IMG/VR virus record: IMGVR_UViG_3300030419_007641 | Coordinates: 1 to 24,981 of that record | Strand: one strand, 5' to 3' | Length of the DNA: 24,981 nt | Source: a virus | Shown: piece after piece, positions 3,381 through 22,715 of the stretch | Layout of the letters: each line of letters begins with the position of its first letter | Position numbering within the stretch: the first letter of the stretch is position 1 | Translations under genes and position numbers: made by a program | The notes under the pieces: generated by a model | Told to the model about the DNA's origin: nothing | Databases searched by the model: none | What the model saw: only the letters and a program-made list of their open reading frames with translations

Positions 3381-3994
3381 TTTATTTCATCAACAAGACC
3401 GTACTCTAAGCAAGTTTTACTATCAAACCAAAGATCATGCTTTAAAATCTCATCAAGTTTTTTCATGGGTATCGTAGTGTACCGTTTATAGATAGACTTA
3501 ATTGTAGACATTAAATGCTTATTATTTTCCATATCATCTTCAAGCTCATTATACTTTCCGTAGAGACCTGAACTTAATTGATGGATTAACATCTTAGAAT
3601 ACTTACCAATAAAACGTTTCGTGCATGATACAGAAATAATAGTTGCTGCTGAAGCTGCTGCACCTTCGACATAAGAATGTACTTCACTGTTTAAATTTCT
3701 TAAAACATCTACCGTTGCTAGACCGGCAAACAATGACCCACCGTAAGAATTAATATGAAGATTAATAATAGGTCGAATATCCAGAAACACATTTGTTACA
3801 GATAGCTTTTTATCTAGTTCATGGAGAGTTGCATTTAGCTCTAGTATATTAGCCTCTGTTATATCACCGTAAAAATATAAATTATTTTCAATTACCTTTG
3901 TTACTGAACCACCGGAAGAGGGCGACGCGTTAATAATATATTGTGGTGAGCTTTGTTCTTCCTCTTCTTCCTTATTAGTATATTTCCAGTTCAT
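3377..3994 (-). CDS. clpP: ClpP-like serine protease (S14)
   Basis: With the start at ATG 3994 (4 bases after the nrdA stop) the protein has 205 residues. It shows the ClpP fold signatures: YFYGDIT (40-46), INLHINSYGGSLFAGLA (77-93), the nucleophile Ser115 in EGAAASAA, His138 in MLIHQLSSG, and an Asp near 187 in HDLWFDSKTCLEYGLVDEI. The first 25 residues are a very acidic tail (KEEEEEQSS). An upstream ATG at 4018 lies inside nrdA and is less likely. ClpP-like proteins in phages act either as auxiliary proteolytic subunits or as head maturation proteases. Its place at the end of the nucleotide-metabolism unit, not beside a capsid gene, favours the first role. Confidence 0.8.
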   Translation of the reverse strand: MNWKYTNKEEEEEQSSPQYIINASPSSGGSVTKVIENNLYFYGDITEANILELNATLHELDKKLSVTNVFLDIRPIINLHINSYGGSLFAGLATVDVLRNLNSEVHSYVEGAAASAATIISVSCTKRFIGKYSKMLIHQLSSGLYGKYNELEDDMENNKHLMSTIKSIYKRYTTIPMKKLDEILKHDLWFDSKTCLEYGLVDEIN

Positions 3995-3998
3995 AATA

Positions 3999-5645
3999 TT
4001 AGCCTTGACAAGAAGCACAATTGAGAATATTTCTCGCTAGCTCTTGAGCTGGATTAGCGCTTCTCTGATAGTATAGTGACTTAATTCCGCTTTGCCAGGC
4101 GTAAATTAAAAGTTCATTAACTTCTCTCGGCTTTGTTTCTGGTGGAATCATTAAATTTAAAGATTGACCTTGATCAATATACTTTTGCCGCATTGCAGCT
4201 TGAATAATAATTTCTTTTTGTGATATCTCTCCGAAGGTTTTAAAAATATCTTTTTCTTCATCAGATAAAAATTTTAGATGTTGTACACTGCCTCCATGAT
4301 TTAAAATACTTTTCCAAGTAGTTGCATTATCTTTTTCTTTTTCTTTTAGTAGCGTTACAAGGTGCGGGTTACGATACGTAAACTTACCCTTAGCTAAATC
4401 TTTAGTAAAGTAATTTGAATTTAAAGGTTCTATAGAAGGTGATACTTGACCAAGAATAAATGAACTACTGGTAGTAGGAGCTATAGCTAAAGTGGTAGCA
4501 TTCCGTATACCATACCCTTTACATAGTTCTGGTTCACCAAACAACTGCGCTAATTCTCTAGTAGCGTTATCACACCTCTCCTTTATTAAAACAAATATTT
4601 CTTGATTGATACCTTTAGCCATTAAAGACTCAAAGGCAATCATTTTTGATTGAAGATATGTATGCCACCCTAAAACACCAACACCCAATGCTCTTTGTCT
4701 TACAGCAAAGTTATGAGGTGCTTCCATATACTTTACACCTTCAGTCTTCTTAATAAAATCAGACATTACAGCATCTAAAAAATAAACTAAAGTTTCGATA
4801 GCATCTGTCTCTTTAATTTCATCCCATAATACTAAATTTAGAGAAGATAAATCACAAACAAACGACTCATCTTCAGAGGAAGATAAAAATATTTCTGTAC
4901 ATAAATTACTAGCGTGTATCTTTTTATCTTTATCTTTGTAAACCTGTGGTGCATTATTATTAGCAGTATCTGTCCAAAAGATATAAGGATACCCTGTTTC
5001 ATATCTCTTCTTAATTATTTTTGCCCACAATTTACGCTTTTCCTTATTACCATCAACAACAGCTTGCATCCATTCATCCGTTATGCATACACCAAAAGAT
5101 AGATCTTGTACGGGGTCTCCTTCTGATCTTATCCTCATAAACTCCTCAATGTCAGGATGTTCAACAGGCAAATAAGCTGCAAAAGAGCCTCTACGTACAT
5201 TACTCTGTGAAACATAATTTATAAGAGCGTCAAATACAGTAAGTTGATGATGTACACCTGTTGCAGCCCCTCCGGAGGATATTGGAGCACCACGGTGCCT
5301 TACTGCACCAAAATAGCCAGAGGTACCACCACCCACTTTAGACATTGTACCAACTTCAGCAACCTTAGTAAGAATTTTTTCCATATCATCTGGAATAAAG
5401 CTACCAAAGCAAGAAATTGGTAACCCTCTTTCTTTACCAAAATTTGACCAAATAGGAGAAGACAGAGAATAAAAGCCTCGAGCCATATAGTCGGTAAACT
5501 TGTCTGCGAATCCTTTTATTTTAAGATATTTTTCAGCGGTTTTAGCAATAGTTTCAATTCTTTCTTCAGGTGTCTCTCCTTCTTCTAGATAACCTCTTTT
5601 AAGAAACTTTTTAGAATCTGCATTTAACCAACTATAATTTTTCAT
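3999..5645 (-). CDS. nrdA: ribonucleotide reductase, large subunit (class Ia-like, no ATP cone)
   Basis: A 548-residue catalytic subunit that reduces ribonucleoside diphosphates to deoxy forms. Visible active-site parts are Cys79 (PISCFGSF), Cys249 and Glu251 (ASNLCTEIFL, the thiyl radical and acid/base residues), Cys264 (FVCDLSSLNL), the radical-path tyrosines Tyr525-Tyr526 (SLYYQRSANPAQ) and the C-terminal redox pair CASC (543-546). The N-terminal ATP cone of cellular NrdA (about 100 residues) is absent, so dATP feedback inhibition through that domain is not expected. It follows nrdB with only 2 bases between stop and ATG and is presumably cotranscribed. The clpP-like gene follows. Confidence 0.95.
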   Translation of the reverse strand: MKNYSWLNADSKKFLKRGYLEEGETPEERIETIAKTAEKYLKIKGFADKFTDYMARGFYSLSSPIWSNFGKERGLPISCFGSFIPDDMEKILTKVAEVGTMSKVGGGTSGYFGAVRHRGAPISSGGAATGVHHQLTVFDALINYVSQSNVRRGSFAAYLPVEHPDIEEFMRIRSEGDPVQDLSFGVCITDEWMQAVVDGNKEKRKLWAKIIKKRYETGYPYIFWTDTANNNAPQVYKDKDKKIHASNLCTEIFLSSSEDESFVCDLSSLNLVLWDEIKETDAIETLVYFLDAVMSDFIKKTEGVKYMEAPHNFAVRQRALGVGVLGWHTYLQSKMIAFESLMAKGINQEIFVLIKERCDNATRELAQLFGEPELCKGYGIRNATTLAIAPTTSSSFILGQVSPSIEPLNSNYFTKDLAKGKFTYRNPHLVTLLKEKEKDNATTWKSILNHGGSVQHLKFLSDEEKDIFKTFGEISQKEIIIQAAMRQKYIDQGQSLNLMIPPETKPREVNELLIYAWQSGIKSLYYQRSANPAQELARNILNCASCQG

Positions 5646-5647
5646 AC

Positions 5648-6634
5648 TTAAAATAAATCCTCTTCATCAAATGATTGATTTTTCTTAGAATATTCTGTAG
5701 GTCTTGTATGGAAAAAATCAGCCATATTATTACCCATTAATTCTTCTTCAAACCACATTGTAGCCTCAAGTGCATCATTATCCATATCAAATGGCGCTTT
5801 AAACCCAATTTGATCTAGAGAAGATATAATTCTATTTTTAATAAAACCTTTAAGCAGCTCAGCATTTAACCCATCTTCTTTGTATCCATTTACCATCCAA
5901 TCAACAATTTTACTTTCTGCTTTTAATGCTTCTTCAGCTTCATGTAAAATTCTTTTCTCTAATTCTTCATCAAATAACTCTGGATACTCTTCTCTAATAG
6001 TGTTTATAATTTTAATACCAACGAGAGCATGAATGTTTTCTTCATTTCGAGTATATTTTACTTGTTGGTCTGTATCCTTAAGAACATTTTTATTTCTAGC
6101 AAACCAATTAATAATATAGAATTGTGAAAACAACGAAACGTTTTCAACGAAAAGAGTAAACAGTATTAATGCATAAAGATATTGTTTTTTACTATCTTTA
6201 TAAAACTTATGTGTATACTTACGTAAATATTTTACTCTACCTTCTATCCATTCTAACTTTAAATTTTCTTCAAATATTTTCTCGAGTCCAAGTATTTGCA
6301 ACAATCTTTCATATGCATTGTTATGTATAACCTCAACGTTTGCCATAACGTATCCGAGATCACATAAAGAAGGGTGAGGTAAATTTTCACCCAGCTTAGC
6401 CCAAAACGTTTTTACCGCAACTTCAATTTGACCAATAGCAGATAACGTCCGAACAATAATTTCTCTCTCCTGATCAGATAGCTCAACCTTAAATTGCTGA
6501 ATGTCTGATTTAAAAGAAAACTCTTTATCAGTCCAAAACCCATTATGCATCGCCTCAATGAACTGATCTGTCCATGGATACCTATTAGGTTTTCTAGATA
6601 CTTGCTCTGTGAATATAGTACTCTCGTTATCCAT
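5648..6634 (-). CDS. nrdB: ribonucleotide reductase, small (radical) subunit
   Basis: A 328-residue ferritin-like subunit that holds the di-metal/tyrosyl radical cofactor for NrdA. Metal ligands and radical residue are recognisable: probably Glu71 (GQIEVAVKTF), Glu101 and His104 with Tyr108 at the usual +4 position (EVIHNNAYERLL), Glu164 (FVENVSLF), and Glu199/His202 (RNEENIHALVG). The C-terminus FDEEDLF is the acidic tail by which small subunits dock to the large one. The radical tyrosine is retained. A TATATA element 6 bases before ATG 6634 may start an nrdB-nrdA-clpP transcript, but readthrough from the small genes upstream is also possible because the gap is only 18 bases. Confidence 0.95.
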   Translation of the reverse strand: MDNESTIFTEQVSRKPNRYPWTDQFIEAMHNGFWTDKEFSFKSDIQQFKVELSDQEREIIVRTLSAIGQIEVAVKTFWAKLGENLPHPSLCDLGYVMANVEVIHNNAYERLLQILGLEKIFEENLKLEWIEGRVKYLRKYTHKFYKDSKKQYLYALILFTLFVENVSLFSQFYIINWFARNKNVLKDTDQQVKYTRNEENIHALVGIKIINTIREEYPELFDEELEKRILHEAEEALKAESKIVDWMVNGYKEDGLNAELLKGFIKNRIISSLDQIGFKAPFDMDNDALEATMWFEEELMGNNMADFFHTRPTEYSKKNQSFDEEDLF

Positions 6635-6640
6635 TCTTTA

Positions 6641-6646
6641 TATATA
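6641..6646 (-). promoter_or_regulatory. TATATA -10-like element before nrdB
   Basis: TATATA ends 6 bases before the nrdB ATG within an AT-only stretch. Weak, because the region is low complexity, but spacing matches the other early-type elements. Confidence 0.3.
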
Positions 6647-6652
6647 TAAAGT

Positions 6653-6886
6653 TTAAAGTGGGAGAGTACTTTTAAGTCCACCATGTGGTAACGAAAACGT
6701 CTTGACATGCTTTTTACCACCTGGACCTTCAACTGTGACAGTCATGAGGTGACCGGACGCATATGGAGCAGAAACTATATTACCCCCAACTGCAATAACT
6801 TTATATAATTGACCCGTACCAGCTTCAAATATCTTAACTGTGTTACTCGACCCCTGTTGTGCAATAAATTGTCTCTGTTTACTCAT
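6653..6886 (-). CDS. small conserved-looking phage protein, function unknown
   Basis: A 77-residue protein that I do not recognise by name. It is beta-rich and glycine-rich (KIFEAGTGQLYKVIAVGGN, later TVTVEGPGGKKHVKTFSLP), which suggests a small barrel of SH3 or OB type. There is no signal peptide or membrane segment. Its ATG overlaps the stop of the upstream gene by 8 bases (ATGAGTAA), so the two are probably translationally coupled. nrdB follows after 18 bases. Position in the metabolic unit suggests early or middle expression. Confidence 0.65.
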   Translation of the reverse strand: MSKQRQFIAQQGSSNTVKIFEAGTGQLYKVIAVGGNIVSAPYASGHLMTVTVEGPGGKKHVKTFSLPHGGLKSTLPL

Positions 6887-7241
6887 AATCTCTGATAGTA
6901 TTTATAAACTCTGCTACTTTAGAGTCTGATTTATGTGTAGCGAAATTTAAAGTATTTGATATTTTTTTCGCAGTATGCGCCCCCTGAATCTTATGAAACT
7001 CAATAAGATCTTGTATAGTTTGAGAATCTACCCCCGGTAAATTTTCATCATCTACATTTAGTATATTTCTTATTTCCTGTACAGAATATCCCTTATTAAG
7101 ATAATTTTTAGCTTTTTTAGTAATAAAATATCTTTTTAAATTAGATTCATCAATATATTCTTTAACTTTCTTATCAAAATAATCTTTACCAAATGTATAG
7201 CTCTTACCGGTAATTGTACATGTTATCTTTCTTGTCGACAT
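6879..7241 (-). CDS. basic, helical phage protein, function unknown
   Basis: A 120-residue lysine-rich protein. The first 20 residues (MSTRKITCTITGKSYTFGKD) look like a short beta hairpin. The rest is helical with repeated aromatic/basic segments (LKRYFITKKAKNYLNKGYSV, then EIRNILNV). The composition would suit nucleic-acid binding, but no named domain is evident. Start ATG 7241 is preceded by a run of A and T with TAATAT about 6 bases upstream. It begins 17 bases after the PRTase stop and overlaps the next gene by 8 bases. Confidence 0.65.
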   Translation of the reverse strand: MSTRKITCTITGKSYTFGKDYFDKKVKEYIDESNLKRYFITKKAKNYLNKGYSVQEIRNILNVDDENLPGVDSQTIQDLIEFHKIQGAHTAKKISNTLNFATHKSDSKVAEFINTIRDYE

Positions 7242-7257
7242 AATATTATATTATATA

Positions 7258-7695
7258 TTATTCCCATGGAAAAACAATCCATTTATTATCTGGTACAACA
7301 CTTGCGTAAAAATCTAGATATTCGGTATGCTTAGGTTTAGTAAAAATGCATGTTATTGAATTTTTAATACGCGCTTGTGATAATTTACTACTCACCCATC
7401 CCATTGTTTCCCCTGTATCACATATATCATCTACAATAAGTATATTACTATTTTCATCTAAAGTGTCTATATTAAAATCTTGAATAACTTTAAACTCGCT
7501 CTTCTCTTTTTTATTATAAGAACTTACCGCTATAGTAAGTAGAGGTATATCTAGCTCATAACTAATAATAGCAGCAGGTATTAGGCCACCACGCGCTATA
7601 CCTACAACATTAGTAAAATTATGTTTTTTAGCTGTAGAAGCTAAAGAACGCGACATAGCACTAATTTCATCAAAAGAATATTTGATTACATCCAT
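7258..7695 (-). CDS. purine-type phosphoribosyltransferase
   Basis: A 145-residue type I PRTase. The PRPP-binding loop is ILIVDDICDTGET (85-97), preceded by the NVVGIARGGLIPA segment (29-41) typical of this fold. The C-terminal WIVFPWE resembles the closing segment of the Gpt/HGPRT group, where an aromatic residue stacks on a purine. It probably salvages hypoxanthine, guanine or xanthine to the nucleotide monophosphate, feeding the phage dNTP supply together with nrdA/nrdB. Substrate choice is inferred from the family only. A TATAAT lies 6 bases before the ATG, and the gene is divergent from the 7751 gene. Confidence 0.85.
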   Translation of the reverse strand: MDVIKYSFDEISAMSRSLASTAKKHNFTNVVGIARGGLIPAAIISYELDIPLLTIAVSSYNKKEKSEFKVIQDFNIDTLDENSNILIVDDICDTGETMGWVSSKLSQARIKNSITCIFTKPKHTEYLDFYASVVPDNKWIVFPWE

Positions 7696-10702: not shown

Positions 10703-10747
10703 TTTATAAAAGCTACTATTATACCCAGTTTATTTGGATAAATTCGC

Positions 10748-10755
10748 CATAAATA
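10748..10755 (+). promoter_or_regulatory. late promoter-like CATAAATA
   Basis: CATAAATA (7 of 8 to consensus) ends 5 bases before ATG 10761 and decides the start of the DUF1549 gene. Confidence 0.6.
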
Positions 10756-10760
10756 CTTAT

Positions 10761-12581
10761 ATGGTTAAGTATTTATGTATGGGTGTTTTAGCCTTTTCTA
10801 CCTTAATTTGTAAGGGCGAACTTGCACCTGAGACAATTGTTAAGCATGCAAATCAGATTGATATTATTGTAGCAGGGGAGCTTCGTAATAAGAGGCTGAA
10901 AATGCCCGCTGCAGCTAATGATACTGTACTATGTCGGAGATTATATTTAGATATTGTAGGTCGACCCCCTACATCGGATGAGATACGGCAATTCTTAGAA
11001 ACAAAAGATAGACCCGCTCTAATAAAAAAATTAGTAAATAGCGAAGGCTATGTTCATCACATGTATAGTTTCTGGGCAGATTTACTCAGAGTTAAGCGCA
11101 ACCTAAATGATAATGTCGGTCAGCTATATGGAGATGCATATATTGAGTGGTTAAAAGAGCAGATCAGAGCTAATACTCCTTATAATAAATTAACAAAAAG
11201 TTTATTAGGAGCTAATGGAAATATATGGGAAAATCCAGCCACCGGGTATCTTTTACGAGACCTAGGCATGCCCTTAGATAACCTGTCTAATACAACGCAA
11301 ATTTTTCTAGGTATTGATATGGCGTGTGCACAGTGCCACGACCATCCTTTTGATGAATGGACCCAGATGGATTTTTATAAGTCCGCAGCATTTTTTGCTC
11401 AGGTAGCTACTAAAAATTCACAAGATGGGGTTAAAGAGCATATTAAGGGGCTACGCGAAGAAGCTAAAGAAATGCAAACCAATGGTAAGAGAGGAATAGA
11501 AAATAAGCTCAATAATTACCTTAGAACAATATACGAATATGGTGTAGATTCTAAACCAAATGGCCGAGTTAGATTACCTGATGATTATGCATATCGAGAT
11601 GCAGAGCCTAAGAGCATTGTATATGCCTCTACTCCATATGGGGAGCGTGTTAAAGAGTCTCGCAATAAACATAAGAGGGAAAAGGATCCTCATAATTTAA
11701 GAAGAAGTTTTGTTGATTGGGTTATTAATGATACTAATCCAACATTTGCACTTAACATAACAAATCGGTTATGGAACCATGCTATGGGCGCCCCAATTAT
11801 ATCTCCTATGAACAATGTAATGGAAGATGGGGAAATAAGTGTTGGAAAAAATAGACGCTTAATGGAATATTTACCGAAAATGTTTGTTAGTATTAACTAT
11901 GATGTAAAGGGATTTTTAGAAATAATTTATAATACGAAAACATATCAACGCGTAAGTTGGCAGGGGTATCAAGATGACTATGTATTCCAAGGGCCTATTT
12001 CTAGAAGACTTACCGCTAGTCAGCTCTGGGATAGTTTCATAACTTTATATCTAGATGATCCAGATTCTGTAACTCCTAATTATGCTAATTCACAATACAA
12101 AGAAATGGCACAAAAAGACATATCTGAAGTAACTTTGCAAGATGCTATTGATGGTCTAGAAAAGTTTAACTCCCTACAGAGAGGTACATATAACCAGCTC
12201 CCAAAAATGGGTCCATGGTATGCTGTTAGAGCATCACATGTTAATCGCCCTAGTAATAATTTAAACGTCTTAATTGAATTCGGTCGCAGTGATAGGCGGC
12301 TAGTCGATAACGGATCTACAGAAGGTTCTATTACACAGCTCTTATTATTAATGAATAGCCCTCTTGTTTCTGCTCTATCTAGCAATAATAGTGCATTAAT
12401 TAGAAAATTAAATAGTTGTAAAGATGATACTACACGAATGTATACATTGTTTTATTCTATTGTTGGGAGGTCACCTACTCCTGAAAACTTTACCAAATTT
12501 AAACCATATATTGAAAAAAGACAGTACCAAGATGTAATATGGGCACTTGTTAATTCACATGAAGCAAAATTTATAAATTGA
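10761..12581 (+). CDS. secreted DUF1549/DUF1553 protein of PVC-bacterium type
   Basis: A 606-residue protein from ATG 10761; the frame is open a little further (TTG 10734), but that would cover the promoter. Residues 1-19 (MVKYLCMGVLAFSTLICKG) look like a signal peptide. A DUF1549 (PSCyt2) domain follows: LCRRLYLDIVGRPPTSDEI near the start, then MACAQCHDHPFDEWTQMDFY with the family's C-x-x-C-H. The second half is DUF1553 (PSD1): SFVDWVINDTNPTFALNITN, RLWNHAMG and TYQRVSW. These domains are expanded in Planctomycetota and Verrucomicrobiota, where they are almost always next to a DUF1501 gene, as here. Biochemical role is unknown; a link to extracellular sulfated polysaccharides has been proposed for the families. 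It is short compared with cellular versions and lacks an extra cytochrome module. Confidence 0.88.
   Translation: MVKYLCMGVLAFSTLICKGELAPETIVKHANQIDIIVAGELRNKRLKMPAAANDTVLCRRLYLDIVGRPPTSDEIRQFLETKDRPALIKKLVNSEGYVHHMYSFWADLLRVKRNLNDNVGQLYGDAYIEWLKEQIRANTPYNKLTKSLLGANGNIWENPATGYLLRDLGMPLDNLSNTTQIFLGIDMACAQCHDHPFDEWTQMDFYKSAAFFAQVATKNSQDGVKEHIKGLREEAKEMQTNGKRGIENKLNNYLRTIYEYGVDSKPNGRVRLPDDYAYRDAEPKSIVYASTPYGERVKESRNKHKREKDPHNLRRSFVDWVINDTNPTFALNITNRLWNHAMGAPIISPMNNVMEDGEISVGKNRRLMEYLPKMFVSINYDVKGFLEIIYNTKTYQRVSWQGYQDDYVFQGPISRRLTASQLWDSFITLYLDDPDSVTPNYANSQYKEMAQKDISEVTLQDAIDGLEKFNSLQRGTYNQLPKMGPWYAVRASHVNRPSNNLNVLIEFGRSDRRLVDNGSTEGSITQLLLLMNSPLVSALSSNNSALIRKLNSCKDDTTRMYTLFYSIVGRSPTPENFTKFKPYIEKRQYQDVIWALVNSHEAKFIN
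12572..12579 (+). promoter_or_regulatory. possible late promoter TATAAATT inside the end of the DUF1549 gene
   Basis: TATAAATT (7 of 8) lies 3 bases before ATG 12583. The spacing is shorter than elsewhere, so chance is possible. Confidence 0.25.
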
Positions 12582-12582
12582 T

Positions 12583-13806
12583 ATGAAAAGAAAGGACTTT
12601 ATAAGAAATACGGCATACTCTTTATTTGGTGTATCAGCACTAGGAGAAGGTATGGGAAAATCGATTAAGCCAGATCCTAACAATAAGGTTAAATCTGTTA
12701 TTTACATTTATTTACAAGGGGGAATGAGTCACTTAGATTCTTTTGATCCTAAGGAAAATGAAGAAGTAAAAGGTACAACAAATGCTATTGGGACAAATGT
12801 AGATGGAATTCAAATTAGTGAACATTTACCTAAACTAGCAGCGATAATGGACAAAATTGCAATAGTTAGAAGTATATCTTCTACGGCTGGTGCACATAAA
12901 CAGGGTCAGTATATTGCTAGAACTTCTTACCAGCTTAGAGGGTCTATTATACATCCATCTCTCGGTGCATGGGCTGCCAGTGAGATTAAAAGAGAGACAG
13001 AGCTTCCTGGTTATGTACTAATTAGCGGGCCATCTAATCACCCTGGATCCGGCTACTTACCGAAAAAATTCTCCCCGTTAACTATTGTTGATCCAAATCG
13101 TGGATTAGCCAACGCTAAAACTGATCCTAAATTAACTGAACGACTTGAACTATTAGGATCGGTTAATAAAACTGCAAATGTTAAACAACCTAAAATAGCA
13201 GAATATGTACAATTTTATGATGAGACATTAAAGCTATTGAACAGTAGCGAACTAAATGTATTTGATCTTAATAAGGTAGGTAGTAAAAAAAGAGCTGACT
13301 ATGGTATGAATAAAATTGGTCAAGGGTGCTTATTAGCAAAGCAGTTAGTACAGCAAGGGATTACGTTTGTCGAAGTAGAAAATGGTGGTTGGGATACCCA
13401 CGTTAATAATTTTGATAAACTAACTGAAAAGCTTCCAGAAGTTGATAATGCCGTTTCTGCATTAGTTGCTGATTTAGAATCGGAAGGTCTGTTGGACAGT
13501 ACCTTAATTGCAATTGCTACTGAATTTGGTCGTACTCCTAAAATTAATACAAACACCGGCAGGGACCATCACCCGGCAGCTTATAGTTCTGTATTAATTG
13601 GTGGTGGTATTAAAGGCGGGGTAGTATATGGTGAAACAGATGATAAGGGACAAAAGGTCAAGAAAAACAAAGTAACGCCACAGGACTTTAATGCTACAAT
13701 AGGGTCAGCGTTAGGTCTCCCAATAGAGAAAGAGTTTTTCTCTCCGACCGGTAGACCATTTCATATAACCGGTAAAGGTACCCCTATTAAAGATATCTTA
13801 ACCTGA
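12583..13806 (+). CDS. DUF1501 protein (alkaline phosphatase/sulfatase-like fold)
   Basis: A 407-residue protein. The N-terminus KRKDFIRNTAYSLFGVSAL resembles a degenerate twin-arginine signal, usual in this family. DUF1501 landmarks follow: YLQGGMSHLDSFDPKEN (about 43-59), VEVENGGWDTHVNNFDKL (about 266-283), IAIATEFGRTPKIN (about 308-321), and GRDHHPAAYSSVLIGGGIKG (about 326-345). The acidic and histidine residues in these motifs form a metal site like that of the sulfatase/phosphatase superfamily. The gene starts one base after the DUF1549 stop, the standard cellular pairing. Codon use is AT-rich like the other phage genes, so the pair is not a recent capture. The 3' end overlaps a convergent small gene by 9 bases. 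Confidence 0.88.
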   Translation: MKRKDFIRNTAYSLFGVSALGEGMGKSIKPDPNNKVKSVIYIYLQGGMSHLDSFDPKENEEVKGTTNAIGTNVDGIQISEHLPKLAAIMDKIAIVRSISSTAGAHKQGQYIARTSYQLRGSIIHPSLGAWAASEIKRETELPGYVLISGPSNHPGSGYLPKKFSPLTIVDPNRGLANAKTDPKLTERLELLGSVNKTANVKQPKIAEYVQFYDETLKLLNSSELNVFDLNKVGSKKRADYGMNKIGQGCLLAKQLVQQGITFVEVENGGWDTHVNNFDKLTEKLPEVDNAVSALVADLESEGLLDSTLIAIATEFGRTPKINTNTGRDHHPAAYSSVLIGGGIKGGVVYGETDDKGQKVKKNKVTPQDFNATIGSALGLPIEKEFFSPTGRPFHITGKGTPIKDILT

Positions 13807-15776: not shown

Positions 15777-16193
15777 TGGTGGAGGTGAGGGGAGTCGAAC
15801 CCCTGTCCTAGAGTACTTTTCACAATAACTCGTTACATACATGGCTTGCTAATTTAATCAAAATAAGGGCTAACAAGCTAACTATCTTATTTTGTTTGAA
15901 GTTATATTTTTGGTACCCTATCAACTTCTTACTTTAGATACTATATCCTCTATCGAGCACTCTTCCTACTAGAGGAGTCATAAGTCGAGCGTCACAGCTT
16001 ATGCTGCGAGAGCGAACTGAGGCTCAGCCTGTGGAAGAACAAAGTCAACCACTTTGTTGGCTGCGCTTGAGATCGCCTTTTTAGTTTTAGCGATAACTTT
16101 TGCAGTTATAACTTGATCGGGTTTTACGAGGCCATCGATCAACCTCGGTATGCATTACTATTTCCAGATGTCTAGTCGAAACCAGGCACCCCC
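15777..16193 (-). ncRNA. ssrA: transfer-messenger RNA (tmRNA) with a 34-residue tag
   Basis: A complete one-piece tmRNA of 417 bases. The 5' end GGGGGUG pairs with 3' CACCUCC followed by ACCA, forming a 7-bp acceptor stem with encoded CCA. The T arm AGGGG-UUCGACU-CCCCU is perfect. A pseudoknot like PK1 is visible near the 5' side (GAGG..GAUCG with CCUC..CGAUC). The tag frame is 16103-15999: after UAUAACU the resume codon GCA begins AKVIAKTKKA, and the tag ends EPQFALAA followed by UAA. The final ALAA is the usual degradation signal. It rescues stalled ribosomes. A perfect TATAAATA lies 6 bases before the 5' end. Confidence 0.93.
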
Positions 16194-16742: not shown

Positions 16743-17270
16743 CTACTTAAAGACTGGATCTAATAATAAATCAACAAACTTCTTTATTGTGCGATATGTT
16801 TTTGATCTCGTAGAAAATCCCCATCTCTTAGGAGCCTGTACCCGAATAAAGGAGCGAAAATCTGTCCCCATTTCTGATTGCCTCGCATACCAATCACATA
16901 CCATTTCTGCTATCTGAGCATCATTCATTGCAGTAATACCGTCAACATGATACTCTGGATGATGATCATTTGTTTGTTGATGCTGATGAATTGCTAACTT
17001 TAATGCTTGCTCTTCTTCGTCTCTATGTAATGTATCCCATTCAATACCTTGAAACTTTGACAGGTCATGCTTACTACATCGTTGCAGTAAGCGTCTAGCT
17101 AAATCTAGATCATTTTCCGATTCAGCATTATCTATAAGGCGTGTTGCTAATTTAAGAGCTGCTGAACGAACAGCTTGGGTATGCTCCCATACTGATAATA
17201 GACGGCGTCGATAGTCTTCCCTTATATGTAGAGGTAGTGTAGAAGGACCATCACTGTCATCTTTATCCAT
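16743..17270 (-). CDS. HD-like protein of the DUF5662 kind
   Basis: A 175-residue, mostly helical protein. The pattern SKHDLSKFQGIEWDT (66-80), then HQHQQTNDHHPEYHVDGI (95-112) and AEMVCDWYARQSEMG (121-135) matches DUF5662-type phage and bacterial proteins with HDxSKF, NxHHPEY and EMxCDW motifs, arranged like the metal ligands of HD phosphohydrolases. The last residues are aromatic and basic. Hydrolysis of a nucleotide or other phosphate is possible, but no substrate is known to me. It follows the 17282 gene after 11 bases in the same unit. Confidence 0.7.
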   Translation of the reverse strand: MDKDDSDGPSTLPLHIREDYRRRLLSVWEHTQAVRSAALKLATRLIDNAESENDLDLARRLLQRCSKHDLSKFQGIEWDTLHRDEEEQALKLAIHQHQQTNDHHPEYHVDGITAMNDAQIAEMVCDWYARQSEMGTDFRSFIRVQAPKRWGFSTRSKTYRTIKKFVDLLLDPVFK

Positions 17271-17281
17271 GACATGTTACC

Positions 17282-17623
17282 TTAACTCCCGGGCAATACC
17301 TTAGGTATTTGATTTAACGGAAAAGGAAGTTTCTTTAGAGCATCTGCACCTGTACCTGACTTTTTAATGGTACCTGGATCCTTAACATCCTTAACAGCCG
17401 GTTGATCGTCGGGTACTTCCTGACCGCGACCTGCCTCATATCCAGCATTAAATGCATTCTGGAGCCTAGGAATTTCAACTTCTAATTTTATTTCACCAGC
17501 TTCATCCTCTACACTTTTTATGTATTCATCAAATAGAGATTCTACATCTTCTATAGCAACTTGCTCATTAAGTGTTTTAAGAATAGAATTAGCTGTCTCT
17601 GTAAATAGTGGAGTAGGTTTCAT
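17282..17623 (-). CDS. small putative head-associated protein
   Basis: A 113-residue protein. The start ATG 17623 was chosen because it lies one base after the upstream stop (TAA-A-ATG). The N-terminus MKPTPLFTETANSILKTLNE contains an L-F-T-E that loosely matches the (L/I)-x-E cleavage pattern of T4-type head proteases. A helical acidic region follows (DVESLFDEYIKSVEDEAGE), and the C-terminal third is Pro/Gly/Lys-rich and flexible. It belongs to the run of small proteins with targeting-like leaders, although its leader is the least typical. Function unknown. Confidence 0.6.
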   Translation of the reverse strand: MKPTPLFTETANSILKTLNEQVAIEDVESLFDEYIKSVEDEAGEIKLEVEIPRLQNAFNAGYEAGRGQEVPDDQPAVKDVKDPGTIKKSGTGADALKKLPFPLNQIPKVLPGS

Positions 17624-17624
17624 T

Positions 17625-18281
17625 TTAATAATCATCAACGTTTACAGCAGCAAGGACTCTAGCAGGTATACGTGCAAATACTTCTCCTGTTGCTTGATCA
17701 ACAACCTGAAGTTCTGTTTCACCGGGCTCAGATGCAGCTACTTGAGCAACTTCAGCTACAACCTCATCACTAAAAAGTACATTAGGAGATATATGCTCTG
17801 TTAATTCTAAAAATTCGTCCGTGGTATCTGCAAGAACTACCTTCCTAATGTAGTGTGCTGCTTCTTCTAAAATGTCTCTATATGTGGCTCTAATATCAGC
17901 AGTAATACCAGTATCAACAACTTCATTAATACCCTTTGTATAATCCTCCCAACAACCATAAGCATCTTCTAAAAAGGTACCATCGTAATGAACAAATGCT
18001 AATAACGAACATGGAAGATATCCACAATCATCTCCTGGATCCACTAAATTAAACCCTAGATGATCTCTAATATCTGAATTATAACTAGTCCTAACATTTT
18101 GAATAATTTCCTGTTTTTCAACATTAATTTTATTAGTTTGTTTTTCTTGAACCTCAATATCAACCTCTACGTTGTCCTCGACATCGAGTACTTCTTCTTG
18201 ATCCTCCGGAGGCGATGTTAATACACCTCTATATGCTTCAGCTAGAAGATTAATATCATTTTTAAAATTGTTGTGTTGCAT
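17625..18281 (-). CDS. putative internal head protein with LLAEAY leader
   Basis: A 218-residue protein beginning MQHNNFKNDINLLAEAYRGV. The leader ending in L-A-E-A-Y is shared with the genes at 19292, 19773, 20254, 20657 and 21891 and resembles T4 capsid-targeting sequences, with cleavage expected after Glu15. Residues 25-50 are very acidic. The region around 85-180 (LGFNLVDPGDDCGYLPCSLL, later TYRDILEEAAHYIRKVVL) looks folded and has three cysteines. The end is beta-like (ELQVVDQATGEVFARIPARV). It has its own AATAAATA promoter and is followed by two cotranscribed genes. Enzymatic function not recognised. Confidence 0.7.
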   Translation of the reverse strand: MQHNNFKNDINLLAEAYRGVLTSPPEDQEEVLDVEDNVEVDIEVQEKQTNKINVEKQEIIQNVRTSYNSDIRDHLGFNLVDPGDDCGYLPCSLLAFVHYDGTFLEDAYGCWEDYTKGINEVVDTGITADIRATYRDILEEAAHYIRKVVLADTTDEFLELTEHISPNVLFSDEVVAEVAQVAASEPGETELQVVDQATGEVFARIPARVLAAVNVDDY

Positions 18282-18286
18282 ATCAT

Positions 18287-18294
18287 TATTTATT
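18287..18294 (-). promoter_or_regulatory. late promoter-like AATAAATA
   Basis: AATAAATA ending 5 bases before ATG 18281. Confidence 0.55.
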
Positions 18295-18330
18295 CAACAC
18301 AATTTAAAAAGATGTTACTTACCTCATTTA

Positions 18331-18426
18331 TTATTTCAACAACCACCAACCAACAATTATCCAAAAAATGAGAAGCCAGAAAATTGCAGCGAAGATATAA
18401 AAATCATCCGGATCTTGTTGATACAT
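18331..18426 (-). CDS. 31-residue tryptophan-rich membrane peptide
   Basis: The frame from ATG 18426 to TAA 18331 begins MYQQDPDDFYIFAAIFWLLI and continues FWIIVGWWLLK. It has a short acidic head and one very hydrophobic helix with four Trp. The start shares one base with the stop of the preceding 26-residue frame (TAATG), which itself overlaps the 18499 gene. The tight overlaps and membrane-type composition suggest a real tiny membrane protein. Function unknown; a holin, antiholin or toxin-like role is possible. Confidence 0.45.
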   Translation of the reverse strand: MYQQDPDDFYIFAAIFWLLIFWIIVGWWLLK

Positions 18427-18506
18427 TAGCTTTGCTTCTTTTGTACGTATAGTACAAGAAGACATAAACATGCTACTATAGTTACTGTTATTATTTGTTC
18501 AGTCAT
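18426..18506 (-). CDS. 26-residue membrane peptide
   Basis: The frame from ATG 18506 to TAA 18426 encodes MTEQIITVTIVACLCLLVLY followed by VQKKQS: one hydrophobic helix with a basic C-terminal anchor. The ATG overlaps the stop of the 18499 gene by 8 bases (ATGACTGA), a junction form used by other gene pairs here, and the stop overlaps the next start. Too short to identify. Confidence 0.4.
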   Translation of the reverse strand: MTEQIITVTIVACLCLLVLYVQKKQS

Positions 18507-18834
18507 TGCGTTCTACTGCTGATGCTTTAGTAATAGGGTCTAAATTATCCGGCTCTTCCATTGCCGGTATACCATTGAATATTAATTCGACTATACCTCT
18601 AGGTCCTATAATTGTTAATAGTAAGCCGAATCCGGTAGCAATAATTAATGTAAATGCTGCAAAACTCAACGGTACTATAATAAGCGAAGGAACTAAAAGT
18701 AATACTGTATAAAAACATCGCAATAATATTCGTTCCTTTTCTGGTGCAAAGAGAGCAGCGAAGATTGACGATGTTAATAATGATGTAATACCCCAAACTG
18801 TACCTATAACTATCTTAGTAATTAACAAAAGCAT
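18499..18834 (-). CDS. multi-pass membrane protein, function unknown
   Basis: With the start at ATG 18834 the protein has 111 residues and about three transmembrane segments (MLLLITKIVIGTVWGITSLL, then FYTVLLLVPSLIIVPLSFAA and FTLIIATGFGLLLTIIG), followed by a short polar tail (AMEEPDNLDPITKASAVERN). The open frame begins 33 bases earlier, but a TATACT element 5 bases before 18834 favours the short form. The next two tiny membrane frames are coupled to it by overlaps. The early-type promoter sets this unit apart from its late-type neighbours. Possible roles are superinfection exclusion or lysis control; neither is shown. Confidence 0.65.
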   Translation of the reverse strand: MLLLITKIVIGTVWGITSLLTSSIFAALFAPEKERILLRCFYTVLLLVPSLIIVPLSFAAFTLIIATGFGLLLTIIGPRGIVELIFNGIPAMEEPDNLDPITKASAVERND

Positions 18835-18839
18835 AATAT

Positions 18840-18845
18840 AGTATA
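18840..18845 (-). promoter_or_regulatory. TATACT -10-like element
   Basis: TATACT ends 5 bases before ATG 18834. The surrounding ACTATACTATA also occurs before the ATPase gene at 24382. Confidence 0.4.
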
Positions 18846-18893
18846 GTGTAAAGGAACAAATAATCAACTCAGTTCCGAAACCTTTTTATGGAA

Positions 18894-19292
18894 CTAGCCT
18901 TTAAATTCCCCTTCAGTCTTTTCAGGCGGAGGGAGATCAGCCGGTTTGCTCTTAAATTGTGGAGCTATTTCAGCAGCTACATCAGCTGGTGCCTTACCAG
19001 ACATTGTTCTTATTTCGAAAGGAGAAGGAACCGGTTGTGTTCCTACATGTACATCATCTTGAGCTATAATAACACCTGGTTGGCTATTACCATTAACAAC
19101 TGGAGCATGATGACCATTGCCAATCTTAACCTTTGCAGCAGTGTGAGCGCCTACATTACCACCGACATATATACCAAATATCCATTTCATCATATCAGAC
19201 CACCCTTCAAAATCTGTATGATTACTAAAAACAAAGGCTGTAGCTGCAACAAACAGTGCTAAAGCAGCTATAAACTTACGAGACTTTATCAT
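18894..19292 (-). CDS. membrane-anchored protein with Pro-rich tail
   Basis: A 132-residue protein with an N-terminal hydrophobic segment (IAALALFVAATAFVFS, 8-23) and a second one (MMKWIFGIYVGGNVGAHTAA, about 34-53), then a soluble His/Gly/Val part and a Pro- and Lys-rich C-terminus (PQFKSKPADLPPPEKTEG). ATG 19292 overlaps the stop of the upstream LSEAY protein (TAATG), so they are coupled. I do not recognise a family. It lies inside the run of putative internal head proteins but lacks their leader. Confidence 0.6.
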   Translation of the reverse strand: MIKSRKFIAALALFVAATAFVFSNHTDFEGWSDMMKWIFGIYVGGNVGAHTAAKVKIGNGHHAPVVNGNSQPGVIIAQDDVHVGTQPVPSPFEIRTMSGKAPADVAAEIAPQFKSKPADLPPPEKTEGEFKG

Positions 19293-19768
19293 TAATACTC
19301 CCCGGCTTCGCGTCTATCTTGAGGGCTCATACCAGCATCAACGGTAAGATCTATATCGTCATCTTCTTCTGCATCTTCTTGACCAGCTCTGTAATTAATT
19401 ACTTCCTCTTCAGCAGCCCTGTGTAGAAAATCTGATAGTATATTTTGTTGATTACGGTCATTCACACTAAACGGCTCATTTATGTATTCATACTCTTCAT
19501 CAGTAAGCTCTCGGTCACCGTCTCGTGTTTGAATAAAGGCTTTTGTAATATATGCATCAGCTTGTTCATGTTCTCTTGGATCAAGGCCTCCTACTTCTAC
19601 TACTTTAATTTGACCGTTTTTAATAGCTTGTATAATATAATTGTCGCCACCATAACTTGGGTTTTCTAATCCCGCCGCAAAATCGCTTTCGTTATATATA
19701 CTCCCGTATGCTTCTGAAAGCATTACTTGATCTTCTCTAAAACCTTTTCTATGCTTATGTTTATTCAT
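19292..19768 (-). CDS. putative internal head protein with LSEAY leader
   Basis: A 158-residue acidic protein beginning MNKHKHRKGFREDQVMLSEA. Its first 22 residues closely match the upstream gene (KHRKGFRED then L-x-E-A-Y), so the two leaders are paralogous while the rest differs. Cleavage would be expected after Glu19. The body is acidic (EEYEYINEPFSVNDR, later QEDAEEDDDIDLTVDAGMSP) with little predicted hydrophobic core. The C-terminus ends EAGEY. It is coupled to the 18894 gene by TAATG, with GGGGAG just before the stop as a likely ribosome-binding site. Confidence 0.7.
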   Translation of the reverse strand: MNKHKHRKGFREDQVMLSEAYGSIYNESDFAAGLENPSYGGDNYIIQAIKNGQIKVVEVGGLDPREHEQADAYITKAFIQTRDGDRELTDEEYEYINEPFSVNDRNQQNILSDFLHRAAEEEVINYRAGQEDAEEDDDIDLTVDAGMSPQDRREAGEY

Positions 19769-19772
19769 GGTT

Positions 19773-20252
19773 CTAATACTCTTCGTCAGAAGGAAATTCC
19801 ATAGAGGTAAATTGTTCTTGTGAATCTAGCTCCAATTCACTCTGGGGTCTAATAAGACTTATATCTTTACCACCTTTACCACCGTACTGAACACCATATG
19901 CATCATCTGTTATAGGTACGGTATTAACTACACCGTCATCATTAACCTGTAAAACGACCTCTAGATGATCCGCTTCGTCATTCGGGCCCCATGGGCCTAC
20001 CTCAATAATTTCACCTGGTTGAAAATCATGTGGATCACCTCTGTAGTTCGGATTTGTATAATCATCTGAAAGCTCTTCATCAGAATCGCGAATATCCCGG
20101 TCATGAAGCCCGCGCGTCGCTTTGTGTGCAAGGCCTGCAACTAGTGGTACCATTTCGTCTAACTGCTCTCTGTTATCATATATGTTCTCATATGCTTCAG
20201 CTAATATCTGAGCATCTTCTCTAAATCCTTTTCTATGTTTAAACTCACTCAT
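19773..20252 (-). CDS. putative internal head protein with LAEAY leader
   Basis: A 159-residue protein from ATG 20252, one base after the upstream stop. The open frame extends to 20348, but that part overlaps the neighbour and lacks the leader motif. The N-terminus MSEFKHRKGFREDAQILAEA shares KHRKGFRED and L-x-E-A-Y with the 19292 gene. Cleavage would be expected after Glu19. Residues about 60-110 (SDDYTNPNYRGDPHDFQPGE, then IIEVGPWGPNDEADHLEVVL) look like a small beta domain. It ends SDEEY, the same last five residues as its upstream neighbour. Function unknown. Confidence 0.7.
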   Translation of the reverse strand: MSEFKHRKGFREDAQILAEAYENIYDNREQLDEMVPLVAGLAHKATRGLHDRDIRDSDEELSDDYTNPNYRGDPHDFQPGEIIEVGPWGPNDEADHLEVVLQVNDDGVVNTVPITDDAYGVQYGGKGGKDISLIRPQSELELDSQEQFTSMEFPSDEEY

Positions 20253-20253
20253 T

Positions 20254-20607
20254 TTAATACTCCTCGTCAGAATCTTCTGCTTTATCATGGGCAATGTCTT
20301 TTTCAGCATGACCATATGCATCTCTTGCAAGAGCATCCCGCTCCGCATCTGTAAGCCCTCTTTTTGGATCCTTTTTTAACCGCTCCTCAGCTGCATCAAT
20401 TAAACGATCACCAGCTGTACCCATACCTTTAACTTTATCTAAGAGCTCTTTATCACCTAAATGACCTGTCTTGTCATGCTCTTCATTTTCTCCTGGCAAC
20501 CCACCCATTCCCATCATCGGCATATGCTGCCCGTTAAATACTTCATTAACCGCCCCATATGCCTCAGCAAGGTTAATAAGATCCTTCTTATGTTGATTTC
20601 TGGCCAT
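20254..20607 (-). CDS. putative internal head protein with LAEAY leader
   Basis: A 117-residue protein beginning MARNQHKKDLINLAEAYGAV, almost the same leader as the 20657 gene (NQHKKDLINLAE). Cleavage expected after Glu15. The mature part has a Met/Gly-rich stretch (QHMPMMGMGGLPGENEE) and then charged helices (LIDAAEERLKKDPKRGLTDA) ending DSDEEY. A perfect TATAAATA lies 5 bases before the ATG. The final codons GAG-GAG-TAT-TAA also serve as a probable ribosome-binding site for the next gene. Function unknown. Confidence 0.72.
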   Translation of the reverse strand: MARNQHKKDLINLAEAYGAVNEVFNGQHMPMMGMGGLPGENEEHDKTGHLGDKELLDKVKGMGTAGDRLIDAAEERLKKDPKRGLTDAERDALARDAYGHAEKDIAHDKAEDSDEEY

Positions 20608-20612
20608 GTAAT

Positions 20613-20620
20613 TATTTATA
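20613..20620 (-). promoter_or_regulatory. late promoter TATAAATA
   Basis: Perfect TATAAATA ending 5 bases before ATG 20607. The 14 bases around it are the same as before ATG 21124. Confidence 0.68.
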
Positions 20621-20656
20621 CTAACCAGCTAAATTATCCGCAAAGGCTCATCTAGA

Positions 20657-21124
20657 TCAATTCCTCATGAACTCCTTCGGATGGCTTGTTATTGCACCTT
20701 TCGTTTCAGATGGAGAATTCCTCATGAACTCCTTCGGATGGCTTGTTATTGCACCTTTCGTTTCAGATGGGGAATTCCTCATGAACTCCTTTGGATGGCT
20801 TGTTATTGCACCTTTCGGCTCAGCAGCAGGTTCCGCCTTATTATACATAGCAATAAGAGCATCACGTACTTCTGGTTTAAGAGTAGGTGGACCTTTCCGG
20901 CCAGAGAGGATAAGAGCATGCTGACCATAATCGCGATCGTAATTGGCTGTACTAGCCATTGCCCATTTAATTAGCTCATGATCAGCTACATCGGCCGTCT
21001 GAGAAGCTTCTTCTTTACCTCTAACTTGATCAGGTGTAGCGCGCCCAAGGTTCATTTCGTTTAGAATCTTATCGTATGATTCAGCAAGGTTAATTAAATC
21101 TTTTTTGTGTTGATTTTTGGCCAT
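20657..21124 (-). CDS. putative internal head protein with LAESY leader and C-terminal 19-residue repeats
   Basis: A 155-residue protein from ATG 21124; an ATG at 21160 in the same frame would cover the promoter. The N-terminus MAKNQHKKDLINLAESYDKI is paralogous to the 20254 leader, with cleavage expected after Glu15. The C-terminal 55 residues are nearly three copies of the unit KGAITSHPKEFMRNSPSET. The copies differ only at silent third positions, so the amino acids have been kept while the DNA changed. The middle (SQTADVADHELIKWAMASTA) is helical. Function unknown; repeats may bind DNA or another head component. Confidence 0.72.
   Translation of the reverse strand: MAKNQHKKDLINLAESYDKILNEMNLGRATPDQVRGKEEASQTADVADHELIKWAMASTANYDRDYGQHALILSGRKGPPTLKPEVRDALIAMYNKAEPAAEPKGAITSHPKEFMRNSPSETKGAITSHPKEFMRNSPSETKGAITSHPKEFMRN
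20661..20818 (-). repeat. 57-bp tandem repeat, about 2.8 copies, inside the 20657 gene
   Basis: Copies start at 20661, 20718 and 20775. The period is 57 bases, or 19 codons. Differences between copies are single bases (for example TTCGGA/TTTGGA and GGAGAA/GGGGAA). Confidence 0.95.
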
Positions 21125-21129
21125 GTAAT

Positions 21130-21137
21130 TATTTATA
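21130..21137 (-). promoter_or_regulatory. late promoter TATAAATA
   Basis: Perfect TATAAATA ending 5 bases before ATG 21124. Confidence 0.68.
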
Positions 21138-21162
21138 CTAGATACATTAATTTTTCGCAAAG

Positions 21163-21176
21163 TATCTTCGAAGATA
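21163..21176. promoter_or_regulatory. 14-base perfect palindrome in the intergenic space
   Basis: TATCTTCGAAGATA lies between the 21199 stop and the late promoter of the 20657 gene. No T-run follows on the minus strand, so it is not a typical terminator. It could be a protein-binding site or a weak RNA end signal. Confidence 0.35.
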
Positions 21177-21198
21177 GCGCGGCAAAAAGTTGAAAACC

Positions 21199-21555
21199 TT
21201 ATGGTCTTAAATGACGAAACCGATCGTTAGTAGTATTACCTAATCTTACCTCTTCTTGATCTTCTACCTCTTCACCATAAGAAAACTTATCAAGTAGTCT
21301 AGATATCTTCTTACGCCAAACCTCAAAGCGCTCTATATCACTACCTTGCAGCCCTCCACTAGCTGGTGGATGTTGACTCGCTCTTAAAAGCTCTTCTACA
21401 GCTTTCTGTGACTGTAACATCTTAATAGTCCAATCAGATTCTTCTTCATCTACCGGAGGAGGTTCTTCAGCACCTACTGTACCTTTTAAACGTACCGGAG
21501 GTACCACAGCACCCCTAGTTATTTTAGAACCAAAAGCTTCTTTAAAGGTTTTCAT
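21199..21555 (-). CDS. putative internal head protein with MKTFKEAF leader
   Basis: A 118-residue protein beginning MKTFKEAFGSKITRGAVVPP. The first eight residues resemble the leaders of T4 internal head proteins, which begin MKTYQEF-. No clear L-x-E follows at the expected place, so cleavage is uncertain. The middle is Pro/Glu-rich (AEEPPPVDEEESDW), followed by helices (IKMLQSQKAVEELLRASQ and FEVWRKKISRLLDKFSYG). It follows the 21557 gene through a TAA-A-ATG junction. Function unknown. Confidence 0.65.
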   Translation of the reverse strand: MKTFKEAFGSKITRGAVVPPVRLKGTVGAEEPPPVDEEESDWTIKMLQSQKAVEELLRASQHPPASGGLQGSDIERFEVWRKKISRLLDKFSYGEEVEDQEEVRLGNTTNDRFRHLRP

Positions 21556-21556
21556 T

Positions 21557-21889
21557 TTATTCTATATCAAGATTAAATTCCCCGGTAAATTCATCTACCC
21601 CAATTGCTTGAATTACAGCAGGTAACTCTTCCTTAACAATCTTTAAAGCTTCCTCTACGCTCAATCCACTCTCATCTACAATGTCTTTAACTTCTTTTTG
21701 GACATATGCTACTAAATCAGGATGTGCGTCTCCTGGATCGGATGAGAGGTACTGAGATTGTATACCTTCATATGCACTAGATACATCTAGATCAGGATCA
21801 TAAGCCGGCGGAATCGGCGCTGGAATAGGATCATCCGGTACATTATATTCATTAAGGAGTCGCTGATAGTATTTGTTAAATGTTGTCAT
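21557..21889 (-). CDS. putative internal head protein with LLNEY leader
   Basis: A 110-residue acidic protein from ATG 21889, one base after the upstream stop (TAA-A-ATG). The N-terminus MTTFNKYYQRLLNEYNVPDD has an L-x-E-Y variant of the leader motif. A Pro-rich linker (DPIPAPIPPAYDPDLD) leads to a helical C-terminal domain (LVAYVQKEVKDIVDESGL, then SVEEALKIVKEELPAVIQAI). Calculated charge is strongly negative, unlike the basic internal proteins of T4. Function unknown. Confidence 0.65.
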   Translation of the reverse strand: MTTFNKYYQRLLNEYNVPDDPIPAPIPPAYDPDLDVSSAYEGIQSQYLSSDPGDAHPDLVAYVQKEVKDIVDESGLSVEEALKIVKEELPAVIQAIGVDEFTGEFNLDIE

Positions 21890-21890
21890 T

Positions 21891-22700
21891 TTAATTATCT
21901 GGAAACTCATGCATGAGGAATGGGCGTACCTTTTTGTCCCACACTATATCATAATCTTTTGAATATTTACTTGGTAGCGACTGTTTAAACTGTTTATGAA
22001 CCTTCTTCATTATATCATCAACACCTGTTTTAGGGTTGTTTTCAATATGGTCTCTCCACTTACTTAAATCAATTTTTTTAAGTCTAGCCATTTCCTCGCG
22101 GTGAGCGATGATCATTGGATCTGGCTTATACTCGTAACCAGATATACCTACTTTAGGCTGCAAAGCTCCTCCTTCATTATCTTCAATTGGCCCTTCTGAC
22201 CATTCGTCTGACCATTTCAGATACTTTGCAAGAAGTCTTTTCTGATTAGCAGGATGAATACCCATTCCTTCCATTGACTCTTTAGCAGTCATACCATTCA
22301 TAATGTCTCTCTGCATCTCTTTAAGAGTATGCGTATCATCGCGATCTTTGTCTCCGGGCATCGTTAACCGACCCTGTGGCGCCGGCTTTTGTTTCTTGAT
22401 CCTTTCCAATTCCTCAGGTGATACCTTCTTAGGCTCCATCTCCATTTGCTTCCTCCACAGTGCTGCATCACTGTCGTCATAACCTTCTTTTAAAAGCTTA
22501 TCTGTGAAGTCCTTATTCTTCATGGCTTTGTGTATCATGAAACAATTACAATGCGGACAATCTTTACCACATGTACATTCCACTACCGGTGCACCGCAGC
22601 AGGCCTCCGGACACATTAATTTACCATCTACTATGCGCTCTAATATAAGCTTGGTATCATAGGCTTCTGCTAAAAATCTGAATTCGTTCTTTGCTCGCAT
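21891..22700 (-). CDS. putative internal head protein with LAEAY leader and eight-cysteine cluster
   Basis: A 269-residue protein beginning MRAKNEFRFLAEAYDTKLIL, with cleavage expected after Glu12. Residues 30-53 hold eight cysteines (MCPEACCGAPVVECTCGKDC, then PHCNC), a likely zinc or metal cluster. The rest is charged and helical, with a possible small helix-turn-helix-like piece (DIMNGMTAKESMEGMGI) and a C-terminal domain rich in Trp, Lys and Asp (WRDHIENNPKTGVDDIMKKV, later YDIVWDKKVRPFLMHEFPDN). It is the largest member of the leader family and heads a unit from a CATAAATA promoter. If delivered into the cell it could act on nucleic acid; this is inference. Confidence 0.7.
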   Translation of the reverse strand: MRAKNEFRFLAEAYDTKLILERIVDGKLMCPEACCGAPVVECTCGKDCPHCNCFMIHKAMKNKDFTDKLLKEGYDDSDAALWRKQMEMEPKKVSPEELERIKKQKPAPQGRLTMPGDKDRDDTHTLKEMQRDIMNGMTAKESMEGMGIHPANQKRLLAKYLKWSDEWSEGPIEDNEGGALQPKVGISGYEYKPDPMIIAHREEMARLKKIDLSKWRDHIENNPKTGVDDIMKKVHKQFKQSLPSKYSKDYDIVWDKKVRPFLMHEFPDN

Positions 22701-22707
22701 ACATGTA

Positions 22708-22715
22708 TATTTATG
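22708..22715 (-). promoter_or_regulatory. late promoter-like CATAAATA
   Basis: CATAAATA ending 7 bases before ATG 22700. Confidence 0.55.

Follow-up and report, generated by a model that had tools for sequence, protein, structure and literature searches.

Leader proteins in the window

Do small phage proteins with unlike bodies but one style of N-terminal leader represent cargo that travels in the phage head and enters the host with the DNA? The question was raised by bases 1-24981 of the virus record IMGVR_UViG_3300030419_007641 (G000; 196,877 bp, possibly incomplete); this stretch of 24,981 bases is called the window. On its minus strand, six genes named by their low-end coordinate (17625, 19292, 19773, 20254, 20657 and 21891) start with a leader of 12-19 residues that ends in L(A/S)E↓(A/S)Y, the arrow marking the presumed cut. 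An initial annotation of the DNA had described a six-gene family with basic leaders of 12-20 residues; all six leaders were found and the length agreed, but with net charges of -1 to +2 the leaders are weakly basic at most. Start codons were inferred. The leaders were recognised by pattern, so that the exact membership is uncertain.

17625-18281, minus strand, start 18281: leader MQHNNFKNDINLLAE↓AY (18237-18281), body strongly acidic (net charge -31)
19292-19768, minus strand, start 19768: leader MNKHKHRKGFREDQVMLSE↓AY (19712-19768), body acidic (-23)
19773-20252, minus strand, start 20252: leader MSEFKHRKGFREDAQILAE↓AY (20196-20252), body acidic (-25)
20254-20607, minus strand, start 20607: leader MARNQHKKDLINLAE↓AY (20563-20607), body (-11) of a family found in relatives with other leaders
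20657-21124, minus strand, start at the ATG 21124, not the TTG 21160: leader MAKNQHKKDLINLAE↓SY (21080-21124), body net charge +1
21891-22700, minus strand, start 22700: leader MRAKNEFRFLAE↓AY (22665-22700), then a cysteine-rich module MCPEACCG..., body net charge 0

The motif [LIMF]xE[AS][YFWH], starting at residue 4-24 of the proteins from one simple gene caller, was present in nine called genes of G000, while its frequency elsewhere in the proteins predicted 0.9 (about tenfold; Poisson P=5e-7). The nine include 48009, probably a coincidental match in an enzyme with a nucleotide-binding fold, and lack 19773, whose start was called too far upstream. A significant N-terminal excess was also observed in the related records G001, G003 and G004. 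The cultured T4-like phages T4, KVP40, P-SSM2, Syn9 and HTVC008M had no significant excess (1-5 matches versus 0.7-2.5 expected). Three further members lie outside the window:

75206-75736: MNKRDQQLLAE↓AY
75754-76353: MAGKKFVKLHE↓SY
139430-139837: MRDQKRREQALMEE↓AY

Prohead protease and candidate cleavage sites

T4 internal proteins reach the core by means of propeptides of 10-19 residues, which gp21 cuts off after L/I-x-E (PMC9026906). The initial annotation had named a gp21-like protease and (L/I/M)-x-E sites in capsid and scaffold as checks, and both were found in G000. The gp21-type prohead protease (170701-171366; S77 E=2e-34, PHROG 207 E=1e-56) stands in a head gene order of T4 type: portal (PHROG E=4e-104), head-tail adaptor, head closure, prohead protease, a gene in scaffold position and the major head protein (gp23-type capsid, PHROG E=7e-84). 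The scaffold candidate was placed by its gene position and had no match in the PHROG search. Near residue 58 the major head protein reads IEE↓GS; in 72 relatives this region is conserved, as [LIVMF]xE (57) or C[FMV]E (15), and the next residue is mostly Ala, Ser or Gly; in two relatives AYG follows. Six (L/I)xE sites before a small residue, including LKE↓AY, were counted in the scaffold candidate. The protease itself begins with MALKLNLVVE↓K, comparable to the start of T4 gp21, MNEPQLLIE↓T.

T4 served as control: its ipII and ipIII start with MKTYQEFIAE↓A, TITE↓A is found in ipI, and none of the three has a second (L/I)xE↓small site. The leader site was the sole such site in four of the six window proteins, 17625 and 21891 having one more each. 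These counts bear on a second explanation, that the six are prohead core proteins like T4 gp22, gp67 and gp68, which would carry the same tag, help to build the head and then be degraded or stay as structural parts instead of being delivered. Four bodies are strongly acidic, as are gp22 and gp67 (17625, 19292, 19773 and 20254 belong to the 15 most acidic of 208 G000 proteins), and the window leader genes are late genes, as would suit core proteins. The T4 core proteins, however, are multi-site (12 sites in gp22, 4 in gp68, 2 in gp67) versus 0-1 in the window bodies, although this depletion against the proteome average is modest and average density would predict only a few sites. The gene set also varies from phage to phage: in the syntenic relative L094 the counterpart of 21891 retains its leader, while 17625, 19292, 19773 and 20657 are without counterpart. 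We consider a role as core proteins unlikely.

Late promoters

Late boxes of T4 type (NATAAATA) were located directly before about 55 G000 genes, about 48 of them at 5-9 bases from the start codon and 27 with a gap of exactly 5 bases; the gap is 7 bases for the portal gene and 5 for the protease gene. Boxes that fit the late promoters mentioned in the initial annotation were found before four leader genes:

18287-18294, minus strand: late-type box AATAAATA, 5 bases upstream of the 17625 start codon
20613-20620, minus strand: late promoter box TATAAATA, 5 bases upstream of the 20254 start codon
21130-21137, minus strand: late promoter box TATAAATA, 5 bases upstream of the 20657 start codon, within the promoter-plus-leader cassette that 20657 shares with 20254
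22708-22715, minus strand: late-type box CATAAATA, 7 bases upstream of the 21891 start codon

The genes 19773 and 19292 have no late box of their own and lie close downstream of 20254, as in an operon; the last codons of 20254 (GACGAGGAGTAT) resemble a ribosome-binding site for 19773. The DEEY at the C-termini of 20254 and 19773 was considered as a second tag and rejected, as these codons and those of 19773 (GACGAAGAGTAT) resemble the ribosome-binding site of the next gene. In T4 late promoters, TATAAATA occupies positions -13 to -6 (PMC1524935); with a 5-base gap the start codon would fall on +1, so that late mRNAs with this gap are probably leaderless. The 5-base spacing was also seen in several relatives and in the pelagiphage HTVC008M, not in T4, P-SSM2, Syn9 and KVP40.

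Across G000 and six related records, the motif was carried by 18 of 183 genes with a late promoter versus 16 of 871 others (Fisher P=1.6e-6). Late promoters serve virion genes generally, and 75206 and 75754 adjoin tail genes; the shared N-termini might then be assembly tags for tail or neck, or an uncut docking helix, unrelated to the prohead protease. The conservation beyond the Glu, with AY and often I/V/L two or three residues later, would fit such a tag. Yet the motif is the known gp21 cleavage motif (PMC9026906), and E↓AY is also seen at the capsid site of two relatives and, within LKE↓AY, in the scaffold candidate, which leaves an assembly tag of this kind very improbable.

Probable leader duplication and exchange of bodies

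The leaders form two pairs, as had been described. Between 20254 and 20657, 68 of 85 bases are identical from -40 to +45 (80%), covering promoter and leader; identity then drops just after the cut site: 8 of the following 15 bases agree, and about one third beyond +60. For 19773 and 19292, the leader DNA agrees in 42 of 60 bases (+1 to +60), and the upstream DNA is not alike. The initial annotation had described the bodies as completely divergent; in agreement with this, pairwise comparison of the six bodies revealed no significant pair (shuffle P >= 0.06; BLASTP E >= 0.2). Because the upstream and leader DNA of 20254 and 20657 are still alike, their bodies would not merely have drifted apart; rather, one body appears to have been joined to a duplicated promoter-plus-leader tag. 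The body family of 20254 occurs under three different leaders, in relatives under MGKQHISFKKDMDLLSE↓AY and MFDKDTSLIFE↓AY. The 20254/20657 cassette and this family support the proposed duplication of leaders followed by replacement of bodies. Relatives have tag families of their own, with MNxDxxLIFE↓AY-like leaders on at least six genes in G004 and on four in G003.

The shared promoter and leader DNA of 20254 and 20657 could also be a mere by-product of promoter and translation-start DNA having been copied recently, the leader peptide being functionless, and start-region DNA can matter for leaderless mRNAs. Against this, L-x-E-A-Y is kept across lineages despite quite different DNA and preceding residues, and the leaders of 19773 and 19292 are alike where their upstream DNA is not; we find such an origin hardly credible.

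Several modules recur around these proteins. As a mobile domain, the 20254 module DKTG..LSD..GTAGD..ERDALARD was also found within other, quite dissimilar long proteins (L323, L324, L320-L322); one example is its insertion into a relative of G000:58890. The cysteine-rich module of 21891, MCPEACCGxPVxECxCGPDCxHCxC, was present in more than 90 viral contigs (L094-L173), often directly after a short leader or deep within multi-module proteins. A third module, CWKGYxxxGTKxKGGxxVxNCV, is shared by leader proteins and further modular proteins from marine phage contigs (G004:8086-8949, G004:215683-216441; L098, L103, L162). The C-terminus of 20657 is encoded by a 57-base in-frame tandem repeat of 2.8 copies (20659-20817; 19 residues per unit).

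Searches of the six bodies against Pfam and PHROG returned nothing at a meaningful score. A match of 19292 to the DNA mimic ocr (E=0.03; 15.2 bits versus a cut-off of 25 bits) was too weak and was not used, and a short NPxYxGD..VEVG match was not significant (P=0.11) as a sign that 19292 and 19773 are distant paralogues. No relatives of 17625 and 19773 were found among viral contigs, no relative turned up in the phage collection at the DNA level, and the cysteine-rich module, 139430 and 75754 had no match in cultured phages. The quality of the AlphaFold models of 17625 (pLDDT 39) and 20254 (pLDDT 57) was too low to search for similar folds.

Probable precursors of internal head proteins

Taken together, the sequence evidence on the leaders, the protease, the motifs at the cut sites, the late promoters and the swapping of leaders makes it likely that the six proteins are precursors of internal head proteins which are targeted by their tag, cut by the gp21-type protease and delivered to the host. 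The leader would bind the scaffold core and pull the protein into the prohead, where the phage protease would cut behind the Glu of L-x-E at the stage of maturation at which it also processes capsid and scaffold. The leader peptide would then exit, and the mature body would remain beside the packaged DNA and enter the next host cell. The leader may thus serve as a reusable address tag, its promoter-plus-leader cassettes being duplicated and joined to unrelated bodies, with each phage lineage having its own version. By analogy with T4, we infer targeting, cleavage, packaging, injection and an action against first-response host defences; the mature proteins would be injected effectors, and the phage probably carries a large, interchangeable protein set into its host alongside the DNA.

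Some observations weigh against internal head proteins. Proteomic data for the clade were not found in the literature searched, and some family members have a weak site only. The six leaders are unlike the T4 tag MKTYQEF/MKTFKEF that precedes L-x-E and have only the L-x-E↓A end in common with it. Four bodies are strongly acidic, whereas the whole ipI, ipII and ipIII are basic (+2, +4 and +9), and a Tyr conserved just past the cut is no known requirement of gp21.

Injected phage proteins meet bacterial defences first and evolve too fast for homology detection. A recognisable tag would make such proteins findable in genomes that lack cultured relatives and singles out particular uncharacterised proteins, possibly among them a superoxide dismutase, as likely cargo for delivery. 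The leaders could also be used as natural tags when phage heads are to be loaded with proteins.

Weaker candidates and other possible cargo

The weaker leader versions listed in the initial annotation were mostly unconvincing. Gene 7751 is a weak candidate only, and the others in the window are:

17282-17620, minus strand: weak candidate, MKPTPLFTE↓TAN or ..TLNE↓QV; the L094 orthologue starts with MTDPRYVNDLSNVYTE↓M
21199-21555, minus strand: not counted as a member; N-terminus MKTFKEAF like the T4 tag, no (L/I)xE↓small site at all
21557-21892, minus strand: weak candidate, MTTFNKYYQRLLNE↓YN (LLNE↓Y) from an internal ATG; acidic, without (L/I)xE↓small site

Leaders in T4 style were also detected on further G000 proteins. 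A superoxide dismutase (G000:51153-51776, L004:13153-13776; Pfam 8e-36) behind a late promoter starts with MSFKSQVNLILE↓K; three viral relatives have conserved its NLILE↓K, which is not part of the region that aligns to solved dismutases, making a packaged superoxide dismutase plausible. A PcfJ-like protein (41115; 1.6e-9) begins with MVSFKVYYE↓A, and a Zn-protease-like protein (139862; 1e-4, under the Pfam cut-off) with MKKFKQFFVE↓K. For a wider proposal the chances seem even: that an uncultured T4-like clade uses a lineage-specific L[AF]E↓AY tag as a plug-in address to which recombination adds changing cargo, with related leaders on the superoxide dismutase, the PcfJ-like and the Zn-protease-like protein, and that each phage delivers at least a dozen proteins before making its own.

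The neighbourhood includes a complete phage tmRNA gene (window 15777-16193, minus strand; ARAGORN; Rfam 132.5 bits) with the tag AANKVVDFVLPQAEPQFALAA. A pair of late-promoter genes (window 10734-13806) may be a DUF1549/DUF1501 pair. Among the matched genomes, relatives of its second gene occurred only in Verrucomicrobiota and Planctomycetota, the best at 43-45% identity in Verrucomicrobia; the host of this uncultured, T4-related phage is thus probably verrucomicrobial. A stretch of 3.9 kb occurs twice, near both record ends (window 3374-7290 and G000:192737-196648; 84% DNA identity), and presumably encodes a ClpP-like protein and both ribonucleotide reductase genes.

Comparison with known systems

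The phiKZ-like and SPN3US-like giant phages with their ejection proteins, compared here by description, belong to another phage group and have another cut motif, while the head genes of G000 are of T4 type; as far as the accounts consulted describe them, they share the cleavage of many head proteins after Glu by a gp21-related protease, in their case a diverged one, and the delivery of these proteins with the DNA (PMC7411985, PMC5694885, PMC9026906). The cultured T4-like phages all have an S77 protease and the same leader style on single genes (MKSFKQFLEE↓AY in P-SSM2, MTRYTKTMAE↓AY in HTVC008M), but without a significant genome-wide excess of leaders with E-(A/S)-aromatic. In T4 itself, IPI and IPIII are injected anti-defence proteins; IPI inhibits the restriction enzyme GmrSD, and in a natural E. 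coli host IPIII acts in the cytoplasm (PMC9391042). The G000 family differs in its size of at least nine genes, in its own late promoters, in bodies that are not homologous to the internal proteins and in leaders that do not resemble the T4 tag, only the siteless 21199 showing MKTFKE. Common to both are a short N-terminal leader ending in (L/I)xE↓A, unlike bodies behind a single tag (in T4, IPII/IPIII), a gp21-type protease and a rapid turnover of genes (PMC9026906); further sites of this kind are scarce or absent in both, though in the window bodies average density would predict only a few. The leaders of G000 may therefore work like those of T4, and the family is most likely a multi-gene variant of the T4 capsid-targeting system that extends across the clade and in which both tags and bodies can be exchanged.

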